A stretch of 14,287 nt of DNA from Dinochytrium kinnereticum (lineage: Eukaryota > Chytridiomycota > Chytridiomycetes > Chytridiales > Chytridiaceae), in the NCBI GenBank assembly GCA_027604005.1, contig JADGJT010000440.1, positions 2,340 through 16,626 on the forward strand. The letters are read 5' to 3'. This document shows, in pieces, positions 3,120 to 14,070 of the stretch. Position 1 is the first letter of the stretch. Each line of letters begins with the position of its first letter. A model generated the notes under the pieces. That model had not been told where the DNA came from. It did not search any database and saw nothing but the letters and a program-made list of their open reading frames with translations. The position numbers and the translations under genes are program-made.

Positions 3120-4079
3120 TTAGACGGTATTCAAGAGGGCAATAACCTGCTCCAACATGTTGGCGGCATTGGCCGTGGCATCCTCATCGTCTGAATCCAA
3201 CAAGGCAATAACGTCCTCCAGCATGTTGACTGCAGCTTCAACCGTCACAGTGTCAACAGTTGCGCTATCCTCAACGAGAGCGGCAGGTGCAAGGTTGAGA
3301 GCTGGTGGCGGTGGAATGGACCCGACCAGACTAGCAACAGCGGGAGCAGCAGCACCACCAGGAAACGCAGCAGCAATGTTGGTTCGCTTCCCATTGGCGG
3401 CGTTAAAAGTATCAGCGGCTCGGGCGTTAAGGTTGTCTCTTTGAGGGTCAGCACCACCAGAGAAGCCAGTGACTCCAGAGGCGATGAGTGCCGCTCCGGC
3501 CTGCTCACAAGTTGTCTTGCACTGGCCTTGGGTTGCGCGGTTGCAAATCTGCTGGACGACGATGGCGGGATTGAGGGCCACCTGCCTGCCGTCCTTACCG
3601 AATCGATGCTGTGTGCCCTGAACGATGTAATCCATAGTCTCGGTGTTGCAGTTACCAGCCGCGTTGACTCCTCCGGCAGCAGCCGGCTGAGCAGCACCAC
3701 CACCATTTCCTCCTGCAGCAGCCAGGAAGGCAGCAGCTATGTTGGTTCGCTTCCCGTTGGCGGCGTTGAAAGTATCAGCGGCTTGCGCGTTGAGAACGTC
3801 TTTCTGGGGGTCAGCGGCTCCTGAGAATCCTCTGGCTCCTGATGCAATAAGAGCCGCACCGGCTTGGTTACAGGTTGTCTTGCATTGACCAGCAGGTGCT
3901 TGATCGCAGATCTGTTGGACGACGATGGCGGGATTGAGCGCGACCTGGTTACCGTCCTTGCCAAATCGATGCTCTTGGCCTTGGACGATGTACTCCATGC
4001 TCTTGACATTGCAATTCTGAGCAACAGCCTTGGACGCGGTGGCTGCGACGAGAAGGATGGTGAGGGAAAGAAACTTCAT
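3120..4079 (-). CDS. Secreted Ala-rich protein with two 97-residue Cys repeats
   Basis: A 319-residue secreted protein of unknown function. The start is the ATG at 4077-4079, because it opens a classic signal peptide (MKFLSLTILLVAATASKAVAQ) and sits about 100 bp from a TATA box. The frame is also open further upstream, but without hydrophobic sequence. Residues 22-118 and 143-239 are two copies of one 97-residue module, 79 of 97 identical by hand alignment, each with four cysteines at matching places (23, 58, 66, 70 and 144, 179, 187, 191). These probably form two disulfides per module. A Gly/Ala linker joins them. The tail (240-319) has a Pro run and two near-identical acidic amphipathic segments, NMLEDVIALL and NMLEQVIALL. 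No catalytic motif is visible. It may be a wall-associated or effector-like protein, but that is inference. No intron is needed. The opposite-strand frames are shadows of the repeat. Confidence 0.88.
   Translation of the reverse strand: MKFLSLTILLVAATASKAVAQNCNVKSMEYIVQGQEHRFGKDGNQVALNPAIVVQQICDQAPAGQCKTTCNQAGAALIASGARGFSGAADPQKDVLNAQAADTFNAANGKRTNIAAAFLAAAGGNGGGAAQPAAAGGVNAAGNCNTETMDYIVQGTQHRFGKDGRQVALNPAIVVQQICNRATQGQCKTTCEQAGAALIASGVTGFSGGADPQRDNLNARAADTFNAANGKRTNIAAAFPGGAAAPAVASLVGSIPPPPALNLAPAALVEDSATVDTVTVEAAVNMLEDVIALLDSDDEDATANAANMLEQVIALLNTV
3363..3653 (-). repeat. Second copy of the 97-residue module
   Basis: This encodes residues 143-239 of the secreted protein, paired with the first copy at 3726-4016. 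Both copies share long identical blocks such as HRFGKDG, QVALNPAIVVQQIC, GQCKTTC and DTFNAANGKRTNIAAAF. The differences cluster just after the first Cys, between Cys 2 and Cys 3, and after the AALIASG block. Confidence 0.9.
3726..4016 (-). repeat. First copy of the 97-residue module
   Basis: This encodes residues 22-118, directly after the predicted signal peptide cleavage site. It starts with NCN and ends with NIAAAF, like the second copy at 3363-3653, and the two are separated by a 24-residue Gly/Ala-rich linker. Confidence 0.9.
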
Positions 4080-4177
4080 CTTGTTGGCGATGGGTATAAG
4101 TTGCAGTAGGGTATGATGTTTTTTTGAGTGCTTGTTTGTGAATGGAATGATGTCTGCTGGAGTGAGAGAATGTGTAG

Positions 4178-4185
4178 CTTTTATA
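4178..4185 (-). promoter_or_regulatory. TATA box of the secreted-protein gene
   Basis: The minus strand reads TATAAAAG here, 98 bases upstream of the ATG at 4079. That would give a leader of roughly 60 to 70 nt. It is the best TATA match in the intergenic region and points towards the secreted-protein gene. Confidence 0.65.
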
Positions 4186-4383
4186 TGCACGAACCGCAAG
4201 CTGCGCGTTTCATCTTCTGCCACCCCAGATGCGCGTGTCAACGTAGCCGCAGTGTCGGATGGTCCGCTCCGACATAAGCTGTTCCATGAGACGAAACAAG
4301 TAATCATGGCACATCAGACATCGTTCTTCTCTCAGTTGAAACACGAGAATACGCCGCAACAACAGCCATGCGCGCAGAGCATG

Positions 4384-4948: not shown

Positions 4949-6119
4949 ATGACTTCTCCACCTGCGACTCCAGCCGACCATGACGGCCGTCAACATGAGG
5001 GATCGTCGCTTCCCCCAACCACCGTCGAGTGGCTGTCAGCGAACTCGCGTCAGAACGACGACTTCCTAAACACAGCGGACCAGATCTTCGTCGCGCAGTC
5101 ATCTACAACTCTTGACGAAGGAAAGGTTCCCACAACAGCCAGAAGCGCATCAATCATCTCAATAGTAAGCGCCAAAATGAGCACAGCAGACCTCTGCTCG
5201 ATGAATTCAGAACGAAGACGGGTGGGATCGGCGGACCTGGAAGTGAGAGTTGAAAGTGGGGATGATTTGGGGGCTCAACTCAAGATGACGAAGCCGGAAT
5301 TTGGTCATCGGCATTACAGCCATCGTGCACCAAACCTCAGGTGAGGTTCATCATCCATCTCTTCATCCGTTTTTGACACGCATTCAGAGCGGCTGTCTTG
5401 GGAGCCAACGATGGTCTGGTTTCCACTTCCGCCCTCATGTTGGGTTTCGCCGGGGCCGACGACGGAAATAGGAAGGCCATGATCCTTTCTGGTGTTGCCG
5501 GTATGGTCGCTGGGGCATTATCGATGGCTTGCGGGGAGTATGTATCGGTTGCCTCTCAAAAGGATGCTGAAGTCGCAGACGTCAAGCGGGAAAAGGCTGA
5601 ATTCCTAAAAGGGCCAGCTTATGAGACGCAGGAGATGAACGAGCTGGCTCGTAAGTATTTTCTCCTTTATTTTACAACAAGATTATAATCATACCTCTAG
5701 AAATATATGTTTCCCGCGGTCTCTGCCCAGATCTTGCCAGGCAAGTCGTAGAGAACTTACACAGCTCTGCAGGAGGTGACCTGAATAAGATCGTGGCTGT
5801 CCATCTTCGCGATGAATTGGCCATCGACGTCAATGCTCTCTCAAACCCATTTGCGGCATCAGTTCTCTCTGCCTTAACTTTTATCATGGGTGCATTAATC
5901 CCACTCTTGGCCGCATGGTTCATACAAGAAGCAAAATGGAGAGTTTTATCGATCGTTGTGGCCTCCTCAGCAGGGCTGGTCATGTTTGGGGCTGCTGGAT
6001 CAGTTATTGGGGGTGCAAGCTGGTGGAAAGGAGCTGCTAGGGTGCTACTAGGTGGGTGGATTGCTATGGCTGGGACTTACGGAGTGGGACTGCTTTTTGA
6101 AAAAGTGACCGGCGTTTAA
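4949..6119 (+). CDS. CCC1: VIT1/CCC1-family vacuolar Fe(II)/Mn transporter
   Basis: A 357-residue integral membrane transporter that moves cytosolic Fe(II)/Mn(II) into the vacuole by proton antiport. Exons are 4949-5340, 5388-5650 and 5701-6119, with introns of 47 and 50 nt (GTGAGG..CAG, GTAAGT..TAG). The joins restore LRAAVLGANDGLVSTS and ELAQIYVSRGL, both family signatures. Residues 1-130 are a polar cytosolic extension. TM1 is about 134-151 and TM2 about 161-183, with ACGEYVSV. The cytosolic metal-binding helices are 186-260 with a ladder of acids (E192, D195, E199, E202, E210, E213, E216) and HLRDEL at 253-258. TM3 is about 268-290, TM4 299-322 and TM5 331-351. Five TMs plus the insert is the standard fold, so the protein looks intact. 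The start context is AAAATGA. It diverges from the secreted-protein gene and converges on the MUL1-like gene. Iron-responsive control is plausible from the CCAAT cluster. Confidence 0.95.
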
Positions 6120-6220: not shown

Positions 6221-7813
6221 TCAAGTATAAACAGTAATCCGCTGGGAGATCCGAGTTCTGCATATAGGGCAATGGGTAACAGCCTCCGAACAGCTATGAC
6301 ACAAAACTAGATGCTTGCAATCCAAAAGCAGCACACCCCGTCTTCTCTCTAAGCAAACAACGCATCGCTCGGAATCATTTATCTCCTCCAAACCATCATC
6401 ATCGTCTTCTTCTGTCAAATCAAGACCCTTTTCCTCTTCAACCCCTCCATCTCCTAACCTCCGCGTCCTAGACTCCAAAACGCTCCAAGACCCACTAAGA
6501 GAAGCGTCGGTCTCCTCCACAACTGCCACTCTTTTCAGTTCCTTTCTCTTCCTCCGATTCCGTCGCTCGTCTGCCTTCCTCTCCTCCTCTATCCGTCTTC
6601 GTCGCTCCTCAATCTCTCTTCTCCGTCGCAGCATCCATCTCTGCACCATGCTCACACCACGGCGGCCAAGCATGCCAGCCCCTACAAGAGCAAACGCCAC
6701 CGTGACCCACATCCATAATCGAACGGCGGAGACACGACTCTTAAGGAGTTCAGGCAAGGTGCGAGTGGAGACGATAAATGGGAGGTTTTCGGACGTTGGC
6801 CGTGTGATTAACGGGGTGAGGTGGGGTGAGGGAAGGAGGGATGCTGATTCGGAAAGAGCTGAAGCCGATGCTGATGTATTGCTGGGAAACACGAGACGCC
6901 CTACCACTGTGACTTGAGAATCCTCTACTAGTGCCCGTTTAATTGTCTCAATGCCAAGCTGATATTGCGGATTTTAGATATGACCAGTATTAAGAAAAAA
7001 CATGTAAAACTTGATGCAACGGAATATCAAATATCAAAAAGGCTAGAAAGCCAATGCCAGCAATAAAAGAAATACCCACATGCCGTTCTCCCTGTAACAT
7101 ATCTGCTGCAATCTGCGCCATCGAAGTCCCGCTCGACGCCGGCTCAAAAGTGGTTGAGACAACAGGAATCTCGAGCTCCACCCCTTCCATGGAAGGAGAC
7201 CAAGCCAACTGATCGGAAACGTTCACGGAGGAATGCGAGGTCACCGCCTCAGTCGCAGAGCCCACAATAGAGGCTTGAGAGAAGGAAGGCAAATAAATCG
7301 AGAAAGGTATTGCATTTTTCTGAGTTGAAAGGATTTGGCTGCCAGTCACCCAATCCCTCCAAAGCTCAGACCATCTCGCAAAATGGCGAGTGAAAGTATT
7401 CTAATATCTCAAACAAGGTGTAAGGCACCGAATAAACAAAGCCAAACAAACAGGAACGGTGTCGTTATTCAACACAGGAGGTGTGTATATGCATGAGATG
7501 AACGGCAAGCAGCAAACAGCATCCTCACCTCCACAATCACTGCTTTAAGAGTATGTCCGCTGGAATCAACGATGCTCATCATCCGGTCAGGCACACTGCT
7601 TCTTACTGTCCCTGAAACCACCACATACCGCCCATCCCATTCTGCAGCTCGAATGATGCTCGACAGCCCGTCCGAAGTCTGTGTTGCTGGTGGTGGAAAG
7701 ATGGATGCGGACGAGAGTACGGCGAGCTGACGCCGCGTCGTCAAGTAGATAATCCCCGAAACAGCGGAAGCTATCGACGGCAGCCAGAGATCCCAGTAAT
7801 CGTTAAAGGACAT
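6221..7813 (-). CDS. MUL1: MUL1/MAPL-like mitochondrial RING E3 ubiquitin ligase
   Basis: A 447-residue two-TM RING ligase of the outer mitochondrial membrane type. Exons (minus) are 7813-7529, 7400-7080 and 6958-6221. The introns are 128 and 121 nt, and both junctions are phase 0. TM1 is residues about 6-28. A BAM/GIDE domain lies between the TMs, with VVVSGTVRS, HFARWSELWRDW, IPF and, across the second junction, GERH/LGIETIKRAL followed by VTVVGRLVF. TM2 is about 280-300, preceded by VRLW as in animal MUL1. The C-terminal C3HC4 RING (401-435) runs CVVC, DCKH, LCHSC, CPICR and ends ITVY. Unlike the roughly 350-residue animal protein it carries an Arg/Glu-rich helix (309-346) and an acidic stretch (376-397) before the RING. 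The start is the ATG at 7813; no in-frame ATG lies upstream. MUL1 ubiquitinates or SUMOylates mitochondrial dynamics factors in animals. The substrates here are unknown. Confidence 0.9.
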
Positions 7814-7930
7814 TCTTCTCCTCACTCCGCACGACTGTTGTCAAGTCGCTCTTTTTCGGTGGTTTCTTTTTTTTTCGAATGTTTTTGGCACAGTCATGCA
7901 CTGCAGCTGAATTCGAATCACACCCCAATC
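7814..7930. promoter_or_regulatory. Compact bidirectional promoter (MUL1-like / IMPACT-like)
   Basis: Only 117 bp separate the two divergent ATGs, so both leaders and core promoters must share this stretch. It has a T-rich run on the plus strand (7867-7875) and no clear TATA box. Two upstream ATGs precede the IMPACT-like start: 7879 (out of frame, overlapping the main start and closing at 7965) and 7896 (four codons then TGA at 7910). Whether either is transcribed depends on the unknown start site. Confidence 0.6.
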
Positions 7931-9084
7931 ATGAAACGACGACGCCCATCAATCCAAGACTTTGAGGATCCTTCCACGAGGCCCCGCCCTAATGCCCCTC
8001 CAAAGCGCTCCTCTCCACCGGCCAACAGTAGTGGAGGTTTTGTCCGTGACGCCTTCTCCGAGCTCATGCAAAATCCTCGTGAACGTCAGCAATCGCTCGC
8101 CTCCGAATCTCCCCCGATGACTCCCGGCCCTCTAACCATCAATGATCGTCAATCTAAGTTTATCGGACATTCGGCAGCCATTACATCCAGGAAGGAGCTG
8201 GACGCAGTTGTTGCATCTATCTCGTTGAACAATCTTTTGAAGACTGCGACGCATAATATCAGGGCTTGGAGGTACTTGAATCTTCGGCCTGGAAGGTCTG
8301 GGGACAAGGAAGATGATTTTGTGGTCATGGAGGGCCATGAGGATGATGGCGAGCAGTGGGCAGGGAAGAAGTTGTTGCAGCTAATGCAGGTGTCTGGTGC
8401 CTGCGACTGTGTTGTGATTGTTACGCGATGGTATGGCGGTGAGCTTCTTGGTCCTGTACGGTAAGTAAATCTTATCCTCTATGTTGCGTTCCTTCCTTCT
8501 ACTTTTTTTTTTTAAACCATTCCTTATGGGCTCATTTTAGATTCCAACACATCGATGCCGTTGCCCTCTCCGCCCTTCATGCCGGGGGATTTATCAATTC
8601 ACCTCAAGGATTGACCAAAACCTCCACACCATCCTCAACTTCCGTCACGCCTGGGCCGGCTCAACCTCTGCCACCAGTGGATACACCCAATCCAATATCC
8701 AACGAAGCCCAAACAGCCCGCGAAAAGTCAATCCGTCTACTCCGCGCCCGAGACGGCACCATCGAATCCCTCAAACATCAAACCCAGAAGCTTCAGCTTC
8801 GTGTCTTTGAGAACCAAAAATCCATTCGAACCCTGCGAGGAACGAGGGAAGATGATCTAGCCCATGTTGAGCCACCTCCCGCTCCATCTCCTATAAAAGG
8901 CCCTCCCCCTGCATCCGAGTATGCGGGTTTGGAGAACGGTGAGTTGGAGCTGAGGATCAAAGAGAAAGATGATAAGATCTTTGCGTTAAAAAATGTGTTA
9001 GGGGAGTGGAAGGAGAGGCTTGCAATTCAAGAAAAGAGAATTATGGAGTTAAGCTTTGTGGCGGCAAAAGTTGGGGTGGATTAG
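7931..9084 (+). CDS. IMPACT/UPF0029-domain protein without RWD domain
   Basis: A 357-residue protein with exons 7931-8460 and 8541-9084 (80-nt intron, GTAAGT..TTTTAG). The splice restores LLGPVRFQHI, which is conserved across the family. The Impact_N/UPF0029 domain spans about 68-195: INDRQSKFIGHSA, HNIRAWRYLN, EDDGEQWAG, and the strong VVIVTRWYGGELLGPVRF signature. Residues 1-60 are Pro/Ser/Arg-rich and probably disordered. After a Pro/Thr linker the C-terminus (about 230-350) forms one or two coiled coils (KSIRLLRARDGTIESLKHQ; ELRIKEKDDKIFALKNVL). IMPACT/Yih1 proteins carry an N-terminal RWD domain that competes with Gcn2 for Gcn1. That domain is absent here, so Gcn2 control cannot be assumed. 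The closer architectural analogue is the RWD-less class typified by yeast YDL177C. The start is the first in-frame ATG. It shares a 117-bp promoter with the MUL1-like gene. Confidence 0.88.
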
Positions 9085-9261: not shown

Positions 9262-12200
9262 TCAAACATGAACAATAACAACATGCCCGGCAGGCGTTCC
9301 AATCGCCAAAATCCTTCCCTGGAAGCTTGTTAAAGTCCCACGAAGAGGTGCTGGCACCCACATCCTCCGTGTCCCATTTTCCTTCCTATCCAAAACCCAC
9401 CCATCATCCGCCAATATCCAAGCCGTCGATCCCGACCCTGACGCCCTTAACACCCCACCCTCCAAAGCCGGAGACCCACGCCTAGATAGAGGGTCTGCAT
9501 TAGTAGGAGTCACAACCGACTCTTTCCCCTCTTCCTCAGAAAGGAGCGGCAACGCCTTCTTCGAAACCGATACGCCATTGACGGAAAGAACAGTGGTTCC
9601 AGATCGCCTCAAAAGCGAAGCGTCAGCCAGATCCGGGCTTCCACGGAACCGAGGATGAAAAGCCTCATCTTCATCATCCTCCGGTATCCCTGAAGCACCA
9701 CCATCCGAGATGCCCAACATCTCAGCTTTAGCAACCTTCCTAGCGGCGTCATCCCAACTGGCGACATTCAAAGTCCGCGTCTCGATGACTCGGACAAGCT
9801 TGCCAGTCTCCGCGTTCCAAACCCTGACAGTGGAATCCGCGCCAGCAGATGTGACAAACCGACCATCATCACTCACAGCCAGCGCACGAACCGTGTCTCC
9901 GTGACCTTCTTCCTCAAGTCTGGGTGACATCGGCAGTGACGCAGAAGTGGCAGGTGATGACGCGACTGCTGCAATGGACGCAAAAGATGATGGTAAGAGC
10001 ATTTGAACCCCTTGAATAGTCTTATAAGGATCGCAATCCCAAACGCGAACTGTCCGGTCGTCACTGCCAGAAACAATTCTTCTCCCATCAGGGCTAACAG
10101 CAACGCAATTAACGCTATTCGTATGTCCTTCAAGAGACTGAACGCATCTTCCAGAATCGATGTCCCACACTCGTACAGTGGTATCCTTTGACCCAGAGAC
10201 AATCCATCGACCGTCTGGAGAAACACATACAGCATTGACAACGTTCGCGTGGCCCTCGAGGGTTCGAATGCCTCTTCCAGTTGTCATATCCCAAAGACGA
10301 AGTGTTTTGTCCTCTCCACATGACACGATGTATCGACCATCTGGGCTAACGCAAACCCCGCAAACGGGTGCCTGGTGACCCTTAAGCGTCCACAAAGTTT
10401 CACCATCTCTAGCATTACGAACGATGACAGTCTTGTCAGCAGCCGATATACTAACAATACGAGACCCATCAGGAGTCATAGCAAGAGCGTTCACACTCCA
10501 AGTCTTTCCCTTTGCAGCATGAACGCACCGACCAGTCGCAGCATCCCACGTCCTAACCATTTCATCAGAAGCCCCAGACACAATCCACCTTCCATCCCCG
10601 CTACAATTGATGTTCCAAACCTGATCAGTATGACCCTCAAGGGTCCTACTAAGCATTCCACTTTCTGCATCAAACACTCGAACAACTCTATCATGACCAC
10701 CACTGACAATCCATCGCCCATCCATCGACACGCTCACAGCCGACACAGTCCGAGTGTGAGATCTCAAAGTCCACAGACAAGGGTTCCAACCCTCAGGTGT
10801 TCCGCGGACAACATTCGGCACGCGTCGAAAGGATGGAGCAGAAGAGGCCGCACGATGCAATCTCGGAGAGTAGATGCGATGAAGAACGGAACCAGGCGGA
10901 GAAAAAGGAAGGGCTGAGATGTAAATGTGGTGAGCGGATTTGACAAGAGGGAATCTAAAGTCCTGAACAAAGCGTTGTGCGTCCTTCGCCACGGACTTTG
11001 CCTGTGCCAAATCAATGTTGCTGGAGGAGTTCAGAAGCCGAAAGATGGTTGGCGGGACGGGGCCAGATAAATCGGGAGGAGGACTTGTTACCGTCGAATC
11101 AACTGATGAAGATTTGGCCTTGATGCCAAGTGTGGCCAAATTCCTCTGAAAGAACCCCATAACTGAAGATAGGGCGCTTGCCGGTTTGACAGAGTTAAGA
11201 TAAATCGAGAGAGCTCGGAGGGCAGCAAAAGCGGTGGACTCAATAGATGAGAGCAGCGAAAGATGCTCTAGCCACTCAAGAATCTTCTCCGAGCACATCA
11301 AACACGCCAAGTCCTCCACAGCTTTCAAAATCTTTGGATCAACAGCGGCAGCCATCATCGCCAAATTTGAATTCGTGATCAAAGGAGCGCCAGGAGCAAC
11401 TCCCACAACTCCTAAATCAACTGCACCAGGAGTATCCGACAAAGCCTGTCCTAGTGCCAAAAGATGGAAGCACCAATACTTAACAGAGTACCGAAGCTCC
11501 TCAGATAGTTTGATTTTAATCCGTTTCTCAAGATCCGGCACTTCAGAGTTAAGCCAGGCAGCAGGGTCTTCGAGGTCCAGAGGGTTGGGTCTCAATCCAT
11601 TAAAAAGACAAGCCATAGTACGAAGGCAGAGCTCGGATTCAGCAAGAACGGTGTTAAGCCTAAATCGATCATCTTTACATCTGAATGATGTGATAAAGTC
11701 CTTAAAATCCGTATGGGATAAGCGTATCCGTAGCTGCGATAGAGAACTACCAGAACTCAAGGCCGGTGAGTCGGTTTCCTCACAAAACTCTAAGAAGCTT
11801 TCGACCTTATAAAGTGTCCTTCTGGTATCCGTCAAAGTCAAGTCTAAAATACCTGCCAAAACCGGTATGCTGACAGGCTCCTTAAAAACCAGTAATGAGC
11901 CAACAACTCTCCGAAAAAGGTCCAGGTCGTTAGGTGCAGGATTGCTGCCAAACCTCGAATCCAAAAGCCCCTGATAGACCTTCTCAAGGCCAACAGGGAA
12001 CGTTTCAAGAGATGCTAACAGTTGGCTTGCAGTTGTGGCAATCCCACCGGCGTTTCGAAGCGGCTCAAAAGCCAAATGAATCCAAAGGAATTGTCCTAAC
12101 GATTTTCCTGTCAAGATAGCGCAGGCCTCCTCCTTGTCATCATCATCAATAGCAGGCAGCACGGATTGGATAAGAGAGGAAGAGTAGGCGAATAAGTCCT

Positions 12201-14070
12201 TGCGCTGTAGAACTCCAAAGATCTCAACCTCTTTGGGGTTTAAGGGCTCCATCTGCTGTTTTAGGCTGTCCTCCGATACAGATGAGAAAAGAAATCTGAC
12301 ATTCTTTGGGAACCTATCCCATTCACCAACGATAGCATCCAATAGATCCTTTCTCGGGTCGACAGGCAACGCGTCCAGACCATCTAAGACGACGATCAAT
12401 GAAGTTTGCCGAAGTTCACCACTCTCCTCAGCAGCCCGAAGAGGATCCACCAAAAGCTTCCTTAGACGTTGTGGCATTGAAGTCTCACGATCCGCAATGT
12501 CCGCATTGTTAGCGCAAACAGTTAAAAGATTTTCCATTATGCAATCTATCTCCGTCGCCAGCCGAAAAGCAAGCGTATTGATGATGGTTGAAGGGAGGAG
12601 TCGGTCAGAGTGATCAGGTCGAATCTGAAACCAAACTAGTCGAACATGTCGTGGAAGGCTGGTTGCCCATTTCGCGATTGCCACTGACTTTCCATTCCCA
12701 GACGGTCCAAACAACCACATGGCTTTCGGTGTTCTCTTCTGCTCGCTAGTTGCCCATTCCGAGAGCATGTCGAGCAGCCATAGTCGCGTCGTCGGGTGAC
12801 ACCGTTCAGCTAAATACTCAAGTTCTCTGGTATATCCAAGGGGTTTCAACCACGACCTCAGTAAGTCCATCCCCTTTTGAGGGGCCGGTTTTTGCTGGTT
12901 CTGGAGCGAGCTAGGCCTTCCTGGAATCGGCGAGCTGAGGCGGAGAAAAGCGGATGCCCTTCTCGACCTAGTTCCCGTCGGGGTTCCCGGAGGTGTCGAA
13001 GACGTCGATGTTGAGGAGAAACGCTGGAACATATCCAATTGAAGGAGTGTCGTCCCATCTGCAATCTTGGAAGAGAGTCTGGCTTTGGATGGTGATGGAA
13101 GCTCTGATGCGCCAGCTGCACTCAAGATTAGCTTAAACAGATCATCCATTAAAGTCTTCCATTCATCTTCTCTCTTCTCTAAAGGTTCTGTGAGAACCAT
13201 GGCAGGGCATCCAGCGGTGAAGATCTCTGACCATGACCGACGATTCTGAGATGTAACGATAGGCACAACCGGTCGAAGTATGTCGTCTGCATAAAGCATC
13301 TCCTTTTTACAAATGGGCTCACTCTGCGAGGAATCATTCAGAACAACGATTTGTGGAGTGGATGGGGTCATACCTCATATGATGCTGAAAGGATCGGGCA
13401 AAACACAGCGCTCTCTGCCACCTGATAAGGATCAAACGATTTTGGCTCATCGGAAGCCTCTGAAGTAAGGACAACCTCCAGCTCTAGACTTGAAAGTGAA
13501 GACTTGATCTTGCTGGCCAGCTCAGCATCTGACGGGCTGGAAAGAAATGAATAAGATCTTGTTGCCCATGTTTAATCTCTTCACTTACTTGAAGCTAAGG
13601 AAAACATCATAGCGAATGACAGGCGTAATTACTGAAGCCTGTTCCTCCTCTTCATAGGCGGCTATTGGTAAAAGGCAACAGTCTCAGATCTTCGAAAGAA
13701 CTGATGGATCAGTCAGTACCTGTCAGTTCCGATTCCTCTAGATCCTTCAACAGCTTTGACTCGACGCTAGGGAGACTATCGTCCTTATCCTCCGGCTCTG
13801 CCTGAAGCCGACGGGATGTGATCAATTGGGGGGGAATGGAGGATGGACCTTTGACCAAAGAACGAAGGTTAGAACCAAGATAGGTTGATCCCAAGATTCA
13901 TCTACCATCTCGCTGCACAGGCGCATCGGAAACTGAATCTAACAGAAGTTTTATAAGAATAATAGTGTTAGGGTGCATGAGGGGTCGCTGACGGTTGCTG
14001 CGATGGATACAGGAGGAGCCAACTCACCCCTGTTGAAGATGAGAGACAGCTTTGCCTCCAGAGATGACAT
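9262..14070 (-). CDS. TIR-NACHT-WD40 NLR-like STAND receptor
   Basis: A 1500-residue receptor-like NTPase. Exons (minus) are 14070-14028, 13938-13906, 13848-13720, 13661-13589, 13536-13374 and 13323-9262. Introns of 89, 57, 58, 52 and 50 nt all follow GT..AG, each brings an in-frame stop if retained, and the phases agree throughout. Residues 1-84 are polar. The TIR domain spans 85-212: RYDVFLSF (85-92), helix SDAELASKIKSSL, ILSASY (141-146), CKKE with the putative catalytic Glu155, and RPVVPIV. A Ser/Pro linker follows (250-296). The NACHT-type NTPase has Walker A GPSGNGKS (353-360) and Walker B LIVVLDGLDAL (456-466), in which the usual final acidic residue is Ala. After a winged-helix/helical region and the SAHHIYISALPFSP linker, seven WD40 blades span about 998-1317. 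The C-terminal DGWVL/WVPAP segment is typical of fungal NACHT-WD40 proteins. Such proteins sense ligands through the repeats and oligomerise to fire the N-terminal effector. NAD cleavage is inferred, not shown. Confidence 0.88.
9750..10780 (-). repeat. WD40 repeat array within the NLR gene
   Basis: Seven WD40 units, roughly 105-130 bp apart, encode the C-terminal propeller. Units carry the usual GH, SPDGR, IVSGS-D and VRVWD elements. Units 5 and 6 are the most alike (about 26 of 33 residues from LEGH to VWD). The others have diverged clearly, so this is not a freshly expanded, near-identical array like those of the fast-evolving fungal HET-E class. A Ser/Pro/Ala insert of about 43 residues separates blades 6 and 7. 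Confidence 0.85.

Follow-up and report, generated by a model that had tools for sequence, protein, structure and literature searches.

An NLR-like gene with an N-terminal TIR domain in the chytrid Dinochytrium kinnereticum

The locus and its gene model

The window, meaning the whole stretch of DNA analysed here, comprises 14,287 nucleotides of the chytrid Dinochytrium kinnereticum (contig JADGJT010000440.1). Its minus strand carries a gene of six exons that encodes a TIR domain, a NACHT-type NTPase and a WD40 propeller. TIR domains are signalling modules in the immunity of plants, animals and bacteria, and NACHT-WD40 is the customary backbone in fungi. Eight neighbouring ORFs were scanned as well; four of them contain a Pfam family, none of a defence type. 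The features of the gene are the following, P0001 being the ortholog introduced below.

9262..14070, minus strand: TIR-NACHT-WD40 gene from ATG to stop, 1500 aa in six exons
14028..14070, minus strand: exon 1, 43 nt (joined frame; start also found in P0001)
13939..14027, minus strand: intron 1, 89 nt, GT-AG
13906..13938, minus strand: exon 2, 33 nt (joined frame)
13849..13905, minus strand: intron 2, 57 nt, GT-AG
13720..13848, minus strand: exon 3, 129 nt (joined frame)
13662..13719, minus strand: intron 3, 58 nt, GT-AG
13589..13661, minus strand: exon 4, 73 nt, with TIR strand A, RYDVFLSF (joined frame and P0001 alignment)
13537..13588, minus strand: intron 4, 52 nt, GT-AG
13374..13536, minus strand: exon 5, 163 nt, middle of the TIR (joined frame)
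13324..13373, minus strand: intron 5, 50 nt, GT-AG
9262..13323, minus strand: exon 6, with the end of the TIR, linker, NACHT, WD40 and C-terminus (ORF and joined frame)
13249..13605, minus strand: match to Pfam TIR_2 at residues 88-172, split by introns 4 and 5 (29.7 bits, cut-off 28)
13300..13302, minus strand: codon of E155 (in CKKEML), the presumed catalytic glutamate (alignments)
12280..12789, minus strand: NACHT-type NTPase, NPHP3_N, residues 326-495 (49.9 bits, cut-off 24.8)
12684..12707, minus strand: Walker A, GPSGNGKS (sequence)
12373..12399, minus strand: Walker B, LIVVLDGLD (sequence)
9790..10767, minus strand: WD40 propeller of seven repeats, residues 1000-1325 (borders of the repeats drawn by eye)

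The five introns lie exactly where an earlier note, made from the DNA letters, had placed them, with GT-AG borders throughout. Their phases (1, 1, 1, 2 and 0) are mutually consistent, read-through meets at least one in-frame stop inside each, and the spliced frame runs from the ATG at 14070 to the stop at 9262 without an internal stop, giving 1500 residues. How much does such an open frame tell us? A control considered all GT-AG chains with introns of 45-120 nt that lead in frame from the same ATG into the last exon. No chain of four introns or fewer stays open, and 128,122 with up to five do. The open frame is therefore necessary but not discriminating, and it is insufficient as proof of splicing.

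Independent support for the gene model lies in homology instead. With residues 80-1000 as query, two proteins were returned at E <= 0.001 from 7990 candidates scored: P0001 of Phlyctochytrium planicorne (Chytridiomycota, Chytridiales), with 1481 aa, 53% identity and 100% coverage, and P0002 of P. bullatum, with 1122 aa. P0001 is a database protein, with which the junctions of the window gene were compared at the protein level. It starts with MSSRLEEKLSLIFNRDSVSDA, the window protein with MSSLEAKLSLIFNRDSVSDA, and the two align from residue 1. Conserved blocks of the alignment span junctions 1, 4 and 5; around junctions 2 and 3 the sequence is variable or the alignment has gaps. Identical positions amount to 40 of 76 aligned in the first 80 residues, 70 of 130 (54%) in the TIR (residues 84-215) and 132 of 257 between residues 301 and 560; for the WD40 region the count is 223 of 288. 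P0002 provides no test of the TIR, since its sequence begins just upstream of the NACHT Walker A motif. A query with residues 82-560 of P0001 returned only P0001 itself among the 7991 scored candidates that share most words with it.

Could the upstream exons still be a chance splice chain in front of a plain NACHT-WD40 protein? The large number of equally open chains and the truncated P0002 model would fit this idea, but chance would hardly place the same N-terminus in P0001 from residue 1, keep the TIR piece 54% identical and lift both proteins over the TIR_2 cut-off. We give it next to no chance and regard the five introns and the upstream TIR exons as confirmed. The database entries also illustrate how easily these exons are missed when the long frame is read on its own, as the earlier note had predicted: the P0002 model lacks the N-terminus, and both P0001 and P0002 are named 'POC1 centriolar protein A', an identity we reject because WD40 makes up just the C-terminal part.

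The TIR domain and its presumed active site

About 83 residues precede the TIR domain. Within the spliced N-terminal 249 aa of the window protein, TIR_2 (PF13676) is the sole Pfam family at E up to 1, its 29.7 bits lying above the cut-off of 28, and P0001 scores 35.2 bits. The hidden N-terminal TIR domain that had been proposed from the motifs thus passes a profile check. When the genome is searched exon by exon, PF01582 and PF13676 both miss the window gene, whose TIR spans three exons, and PF01582 gave nothing at E <= 0.001 in the genome-wide search.

Searched by themselves against the PDB at E up to 10, the N-terminal 249 aa of the window protein gave three chance-level matches, none of them to a TIR, and the two-row TIR profile A1 matched just RPS4 constructs (E 0.96 and 1). 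Clear PDB matches were obtained with profiles A2 (six rows) and A5 (nine rows), both built without the window sequence. The folds closest to a model of the P0001 TIR include RPS4, RUN1 and RPV1; TIR accounts for 13 of the 17 rows of the Foldseek list at E <= 0.001, the rest being other flavodoxin-like folds. The N-terminal domain has a true TIR fold.

Which parts of the active site are kept? In helix C, E155 aligns with the glutamate of RPS4 CVREL, and the glutamate of the family profile aligns with that of SARM1 WVHKEI and also with that of tir-1. We take it to be the counterpart of SARM1 E642 and RUN1 E100, the catalytic residue. Mutants of these two residues are named in PDB entries 7cm7 and 7s2z. 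Six other chytrid TIRs have 29 invariant columns in common. Twelve of these are kept by both the window protein and P0001, among them this glutamate and conserved C, W, T and G residues. Those not kept in both, 17 in number, include the W and D of strand B and the R-L of 'P-x-RL'. While the six chytrid TIRs retain the strand-B W-x-D and NCxREL, the window protein and P0001 do so only in part: they have V and T, respectively, in place of the W, T and a gap in place of the D, and a changed loop after strand B. With these alterations in strand B and the loop, the TIR may be a weaker or altered enzyme. The window copy evolves slowly, and its TIR domain is altered in part.

NACHT, propeller and related genes in chytrids

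Residues 249-791 contain NPHP3_N and AAA_16 as their sole families at E <= 0.001, with no match to PF05729 NACHT listed for this region at that threshold. GPSGNGKS is the Walker A and LIVVLDGLD the Walker B motif. A connector, HIYISALPFSP, precedes the propeller. Of the 68 returned proteins, 17 contain its loose pattern SAL-x-[FMILV]-x-P, namely ten from chytrids (P0001-P0010), six others (five of them from Dikarya) and one from Synchytrium (P0017), where the context differs. The window protein has this connector in common with fungal NACHT-WD40 proteins. The propeller itself is unambiguous, PF00400 reaching 233.5 bits over seven stretches and the best 25 of 63 families in the whole protein all being WD40 or propeller families. 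The repeats are conserved in place, because they are 71-94% identical to their positional counterparts in P0001 (57-90% in P0002), while their mean pairwise identity among themselves is 45% (maximum 67%).

Profile searches of the genome (22.4 Mb, 558 contigs) were run six-frame and exon-wise on limited candidates, so that the counts given here are lower bounds. NPHP3_N gave at least 15 matches at E <= 0.01, eight of them over the cut-off and five strong, with 53 bits or more (C28, C16, C59, C74 and C434, the last being the window gene). TIR evidence precedes the NACHT in the window gene, in C28 (35.5 bits), in C16 (29.7 bits) and weakly in C74, which has 16.4 bits upstream and 20 bits within the NACHT frame, both under the cut-off; the matches listed for C59 include no TIR_2. 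C16 and C28 are also followed by WD40. Further TIR_2 matches lie in C40 (44.4 bits), with ankyrin repeats downstream, in C111 (25.2 bits, under the cut-off), followed by Sel1 repeats, in a 386-aa frame of C156 (36.0 bits) and, weakly, in C349 (19.3 bits). HET gave a single match, C285, at E up to 1. The two best paralogs of the window gene in this genome are 26-27% identical to it.

How widespread is this arrangement in other chytrids? A family search with residues 1-340 of the C16 paralog ORF returned 66 proteins at E <= 0.001 from 4728 candidates, many of them NACHT proteins, including those of Dikarya, without a TIR listing. Most Nowakowskiella and Rhizophlyctis matches combine TIR_2, NPHP3_N and WD40 or propeller families; TIR_2-NPHP3_N was found in Borealophlyctis and TIR_2-NPHP3_N-WD40 in Entophlyctis. 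TIR_2 is not among the matches listed for P0004 and P0005 of Nowakowskiella, whose sequences start within the TIR, for Rhizophlyctis P0014 or for Synchytrium P0016-P0018; a scan of P0016 gave SH3, NACHT and ankyrin. All eight relatives scanned for TIR_2 exceed the cut-off (P0003, P0006, P0008, P0009, P0011, P0012, P0013 and P0015), having been chosen for an apparent TIR and not as a sample. Rhizophlyctis rosea P0009 and P0011-P0013 and Nowakowskiella sp. JEL0407 P0003 and P0006-P0008 have TIR_2 and NPHP3_N in the same order as the window protein, and all except P0008 also have WD40 or propeller families (P0007 by listing). The earlier view that TIR effectors are rare in fungi fails within chytrids, given these four genera and the window's own genome, where TIR evidence accompanies four of five strong NACHT genes. 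Read from identity rather than from a tree, the window gene and its orthologs would form a separate lineage.

Interpretation and comparison with known systems

A 2014 survey reports no NLR hits in chytrids (PMC4986451). According to a 2022 paper (PMC9815663), TIR has been reported in the NLRs of plants, of bacteria and of Chytridiomycota; the paper itself describes TIR-like effectors for NLRs of Pezizomycotina, so the suggestion in the earlier note that the system is undescribed has to be narrowed. One of the four sources cited for that statement mentions fungi once and chytrids, NACHT and WD40 never (PMC7075850). Among the matches listed from titles and abstract openings of the open-licence literature, no description of a fungal TIR-NACHT-WD40 family was found. 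TIR in chytrid NLRs is thus known; the TIR-NACHT-WD40 family and its conserved, TIR-remodelled lineage were not found described.

We favor, with a probability of roughly 0.6, the reading that the window gene, from a chytrid related to Phlyctochytrium, encodes a single-copy, intracellular, NLR-like STAND receptor whose TIR signals via E155 and whose propeller senses a conserved target. The propeller would keep the protein inactive and respond to a conserved cellular target or to its disturbance; nucleotide exchange in the NACHT would then lead to oligomerisation, and the gathered TIR domains, using E155, would cleave NAD+ or make a nucleotide signal, the product of which could trigger cell death or a stress response. 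The NADase and cell-death functions are what we infer for this protein. A conserved propeller whose repeats are not homogenised suggests that the target is probably conserved as well, as for a guard or a SARM1-like stress sensor, rather than a polymorphic self/non-self ligand. Points that speak against this reading are the 17 columns not kept in the TIR, the strand-B W and D among them, the weak PDB results of the N-terminal 249 aa and of profile A1, the mixture of folds in the Foldseek list, and the scanned neighbouring ORFs, whose Pfam families include none of a defence type.

Two other readings have to be weighed against this receptor. The TIR might lack enzymatic activity and serve as a scaffold, drawing in other TIR proteins of the cell, for example TIR-Sel1 or TIR-ankyrin proteins, by homotypic contact. 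The window protein and P0001 both retain the fold with a changed strand-B W-x-D and following loop, and further TIR matches in the genome adjoin Sel1 or ankyrin repeats; yet both proteins also retain, at conserved columns, the glutamate together with C, W, T and G, and we consider a pure scaffold unlikely. Alternatively, the gene could encode a fast-evolving self/non-self receptor like HET-E, HET-D and HET-R with TIR in place of HET. The domain order is identical, and PMC4986451 describes HET as remotely related to TIR. Against this stand the repeats, which are 71-94% identical to those of P. planicorne by position and 45% identical on average (67% at most) among themselves, with no sign of concerted evolution, and the two best paralogs in the genome, just 26-27% identical. 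The self/non-self recognition entertained in the earlier note is weakened by the repeat-by-repeat conservation, and we regard allorecognition of this type as distinctly improbable.

A broader idea, which we put forward tentatively, is that TIR and not HET may have been the main effector of early fungal NLRs, and that one such gene became a single-copy, slowly evolving, SARM1-like guard with a remodelled active site. Equally tentatively, this guard would monitor a cell function that is conserved, and not an invader that keeps changing. In this genome, most of the strong NACHT genes carry TIR evidence, and TIR occurs beside Sel1 and ankyrin repeats too. Fungal NLR biology has been built on Ascomycota and Basidiomycota. 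A chytrid with TIR evidence in four of five strong NACHT genes offers a testable ancestor for the link between HET and TIR, and with a conserved chytrid TIR-NLR the consumption of NAD+ by fungal TIR domains can be tested directly.

The effector-NACHT-WD40 order of the window protein is that of Podospora HET-E, HET-D and HET-R (HNWD). According to the literature, HET and TIR are remotely related (PMC4986451, PMC12881547), and HNWD repeats show strong internal conservation (PMC12881547). In contrast to HNWD, with its HET domain and internally conserved repeats, the window protein has TIR_2 and repeats that are not homogenised (mean 45%, maximum 67%); no HET (PF06985) was found in its N-terminal 249 aa at E up to 1. 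According to PMC9815663, Pezizomycotina NLRs with SEFIR- or TIR-like N-termini likewise combine a fungal NLR with a TIR-clan effector, but this cluster, compared here by description only, belongs to a different phylum and is SEFIR-like.

The plant TIR-NLRs RPS4, RUN1 and RPV1 share with the window protein an N-terminal TIR followed by a STAND NTPase. Plant TNLs have NB-ARC and LRR, where the window protein has NACHT/NPHP3_N and WD40; its residues 249-791 give NPHP3_N and AAA_16 only. In SARM1, ARM and SAM domains precede the TIR, whereas the TIR of the window protein is N-terminal, and its first 249 aa match no Pfam family but TIR_2 at E up to 1. What the window family has in common with SARM1 and tir-1 is the TIR fold and the aligned glutamate.

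Neighbours of the TIR-NACHT-WD40 gene

Pfam found no defence-type gene among the following neighbours in the window, each named by its Pfam match:

904-1518, -, SWIRM protein
5793-6119, +, VIT1 protein
6221-6907, -, GIDE-RING (MUL1-like) protein
7838-8464, +, UPF0029 (IMPACT) protein

At 3120-4307 (-), a protein with two internal repeats of about 100 residues each is discernible by eye; its sequence, likewise judged by eye, suggests a probable signal peptide, and no Pfam family was found for it at E <= 0.01.

TIR, NACHT and HET matches elsewhere in the genome

On contig C59 (locus L011:1631-5676, -), a 1348-residue frame contains NPHP3_N, a NACHT-type NTPase family; TIR_2 is not among the matches listed for this frame, and its N-terminal part matches only an EF-hand, weakly (E 0.09). 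The sole HET-domain match among the genome matches listed lies at C285:22720-23175 (48.4 bits).

TIR-like exons on C111 (L013:3358-5252, -, and upstream) score 25.2 bits, under the TIR_2 cut-off, and precede a frame carrying seven Sel1 repeats; the product is probably a TIR-Sel1 protein rather than an NLR. On C40 (L023:2458-4776, -), a TIR_2 match of 44.4 bits stands immediately upstream of a frame with many ankyrin repeats.

A possible second TIR type on NACHT-WD40

By eye, C28 (L010:3851-4051, +) and the Entophlyctis luteolus protein P0019 share a second TIR type, recognizable by a 'DNMLLE' stretch and likewise attached to NACHT-WD40, which differs, again by eye, from the NCxREL type.
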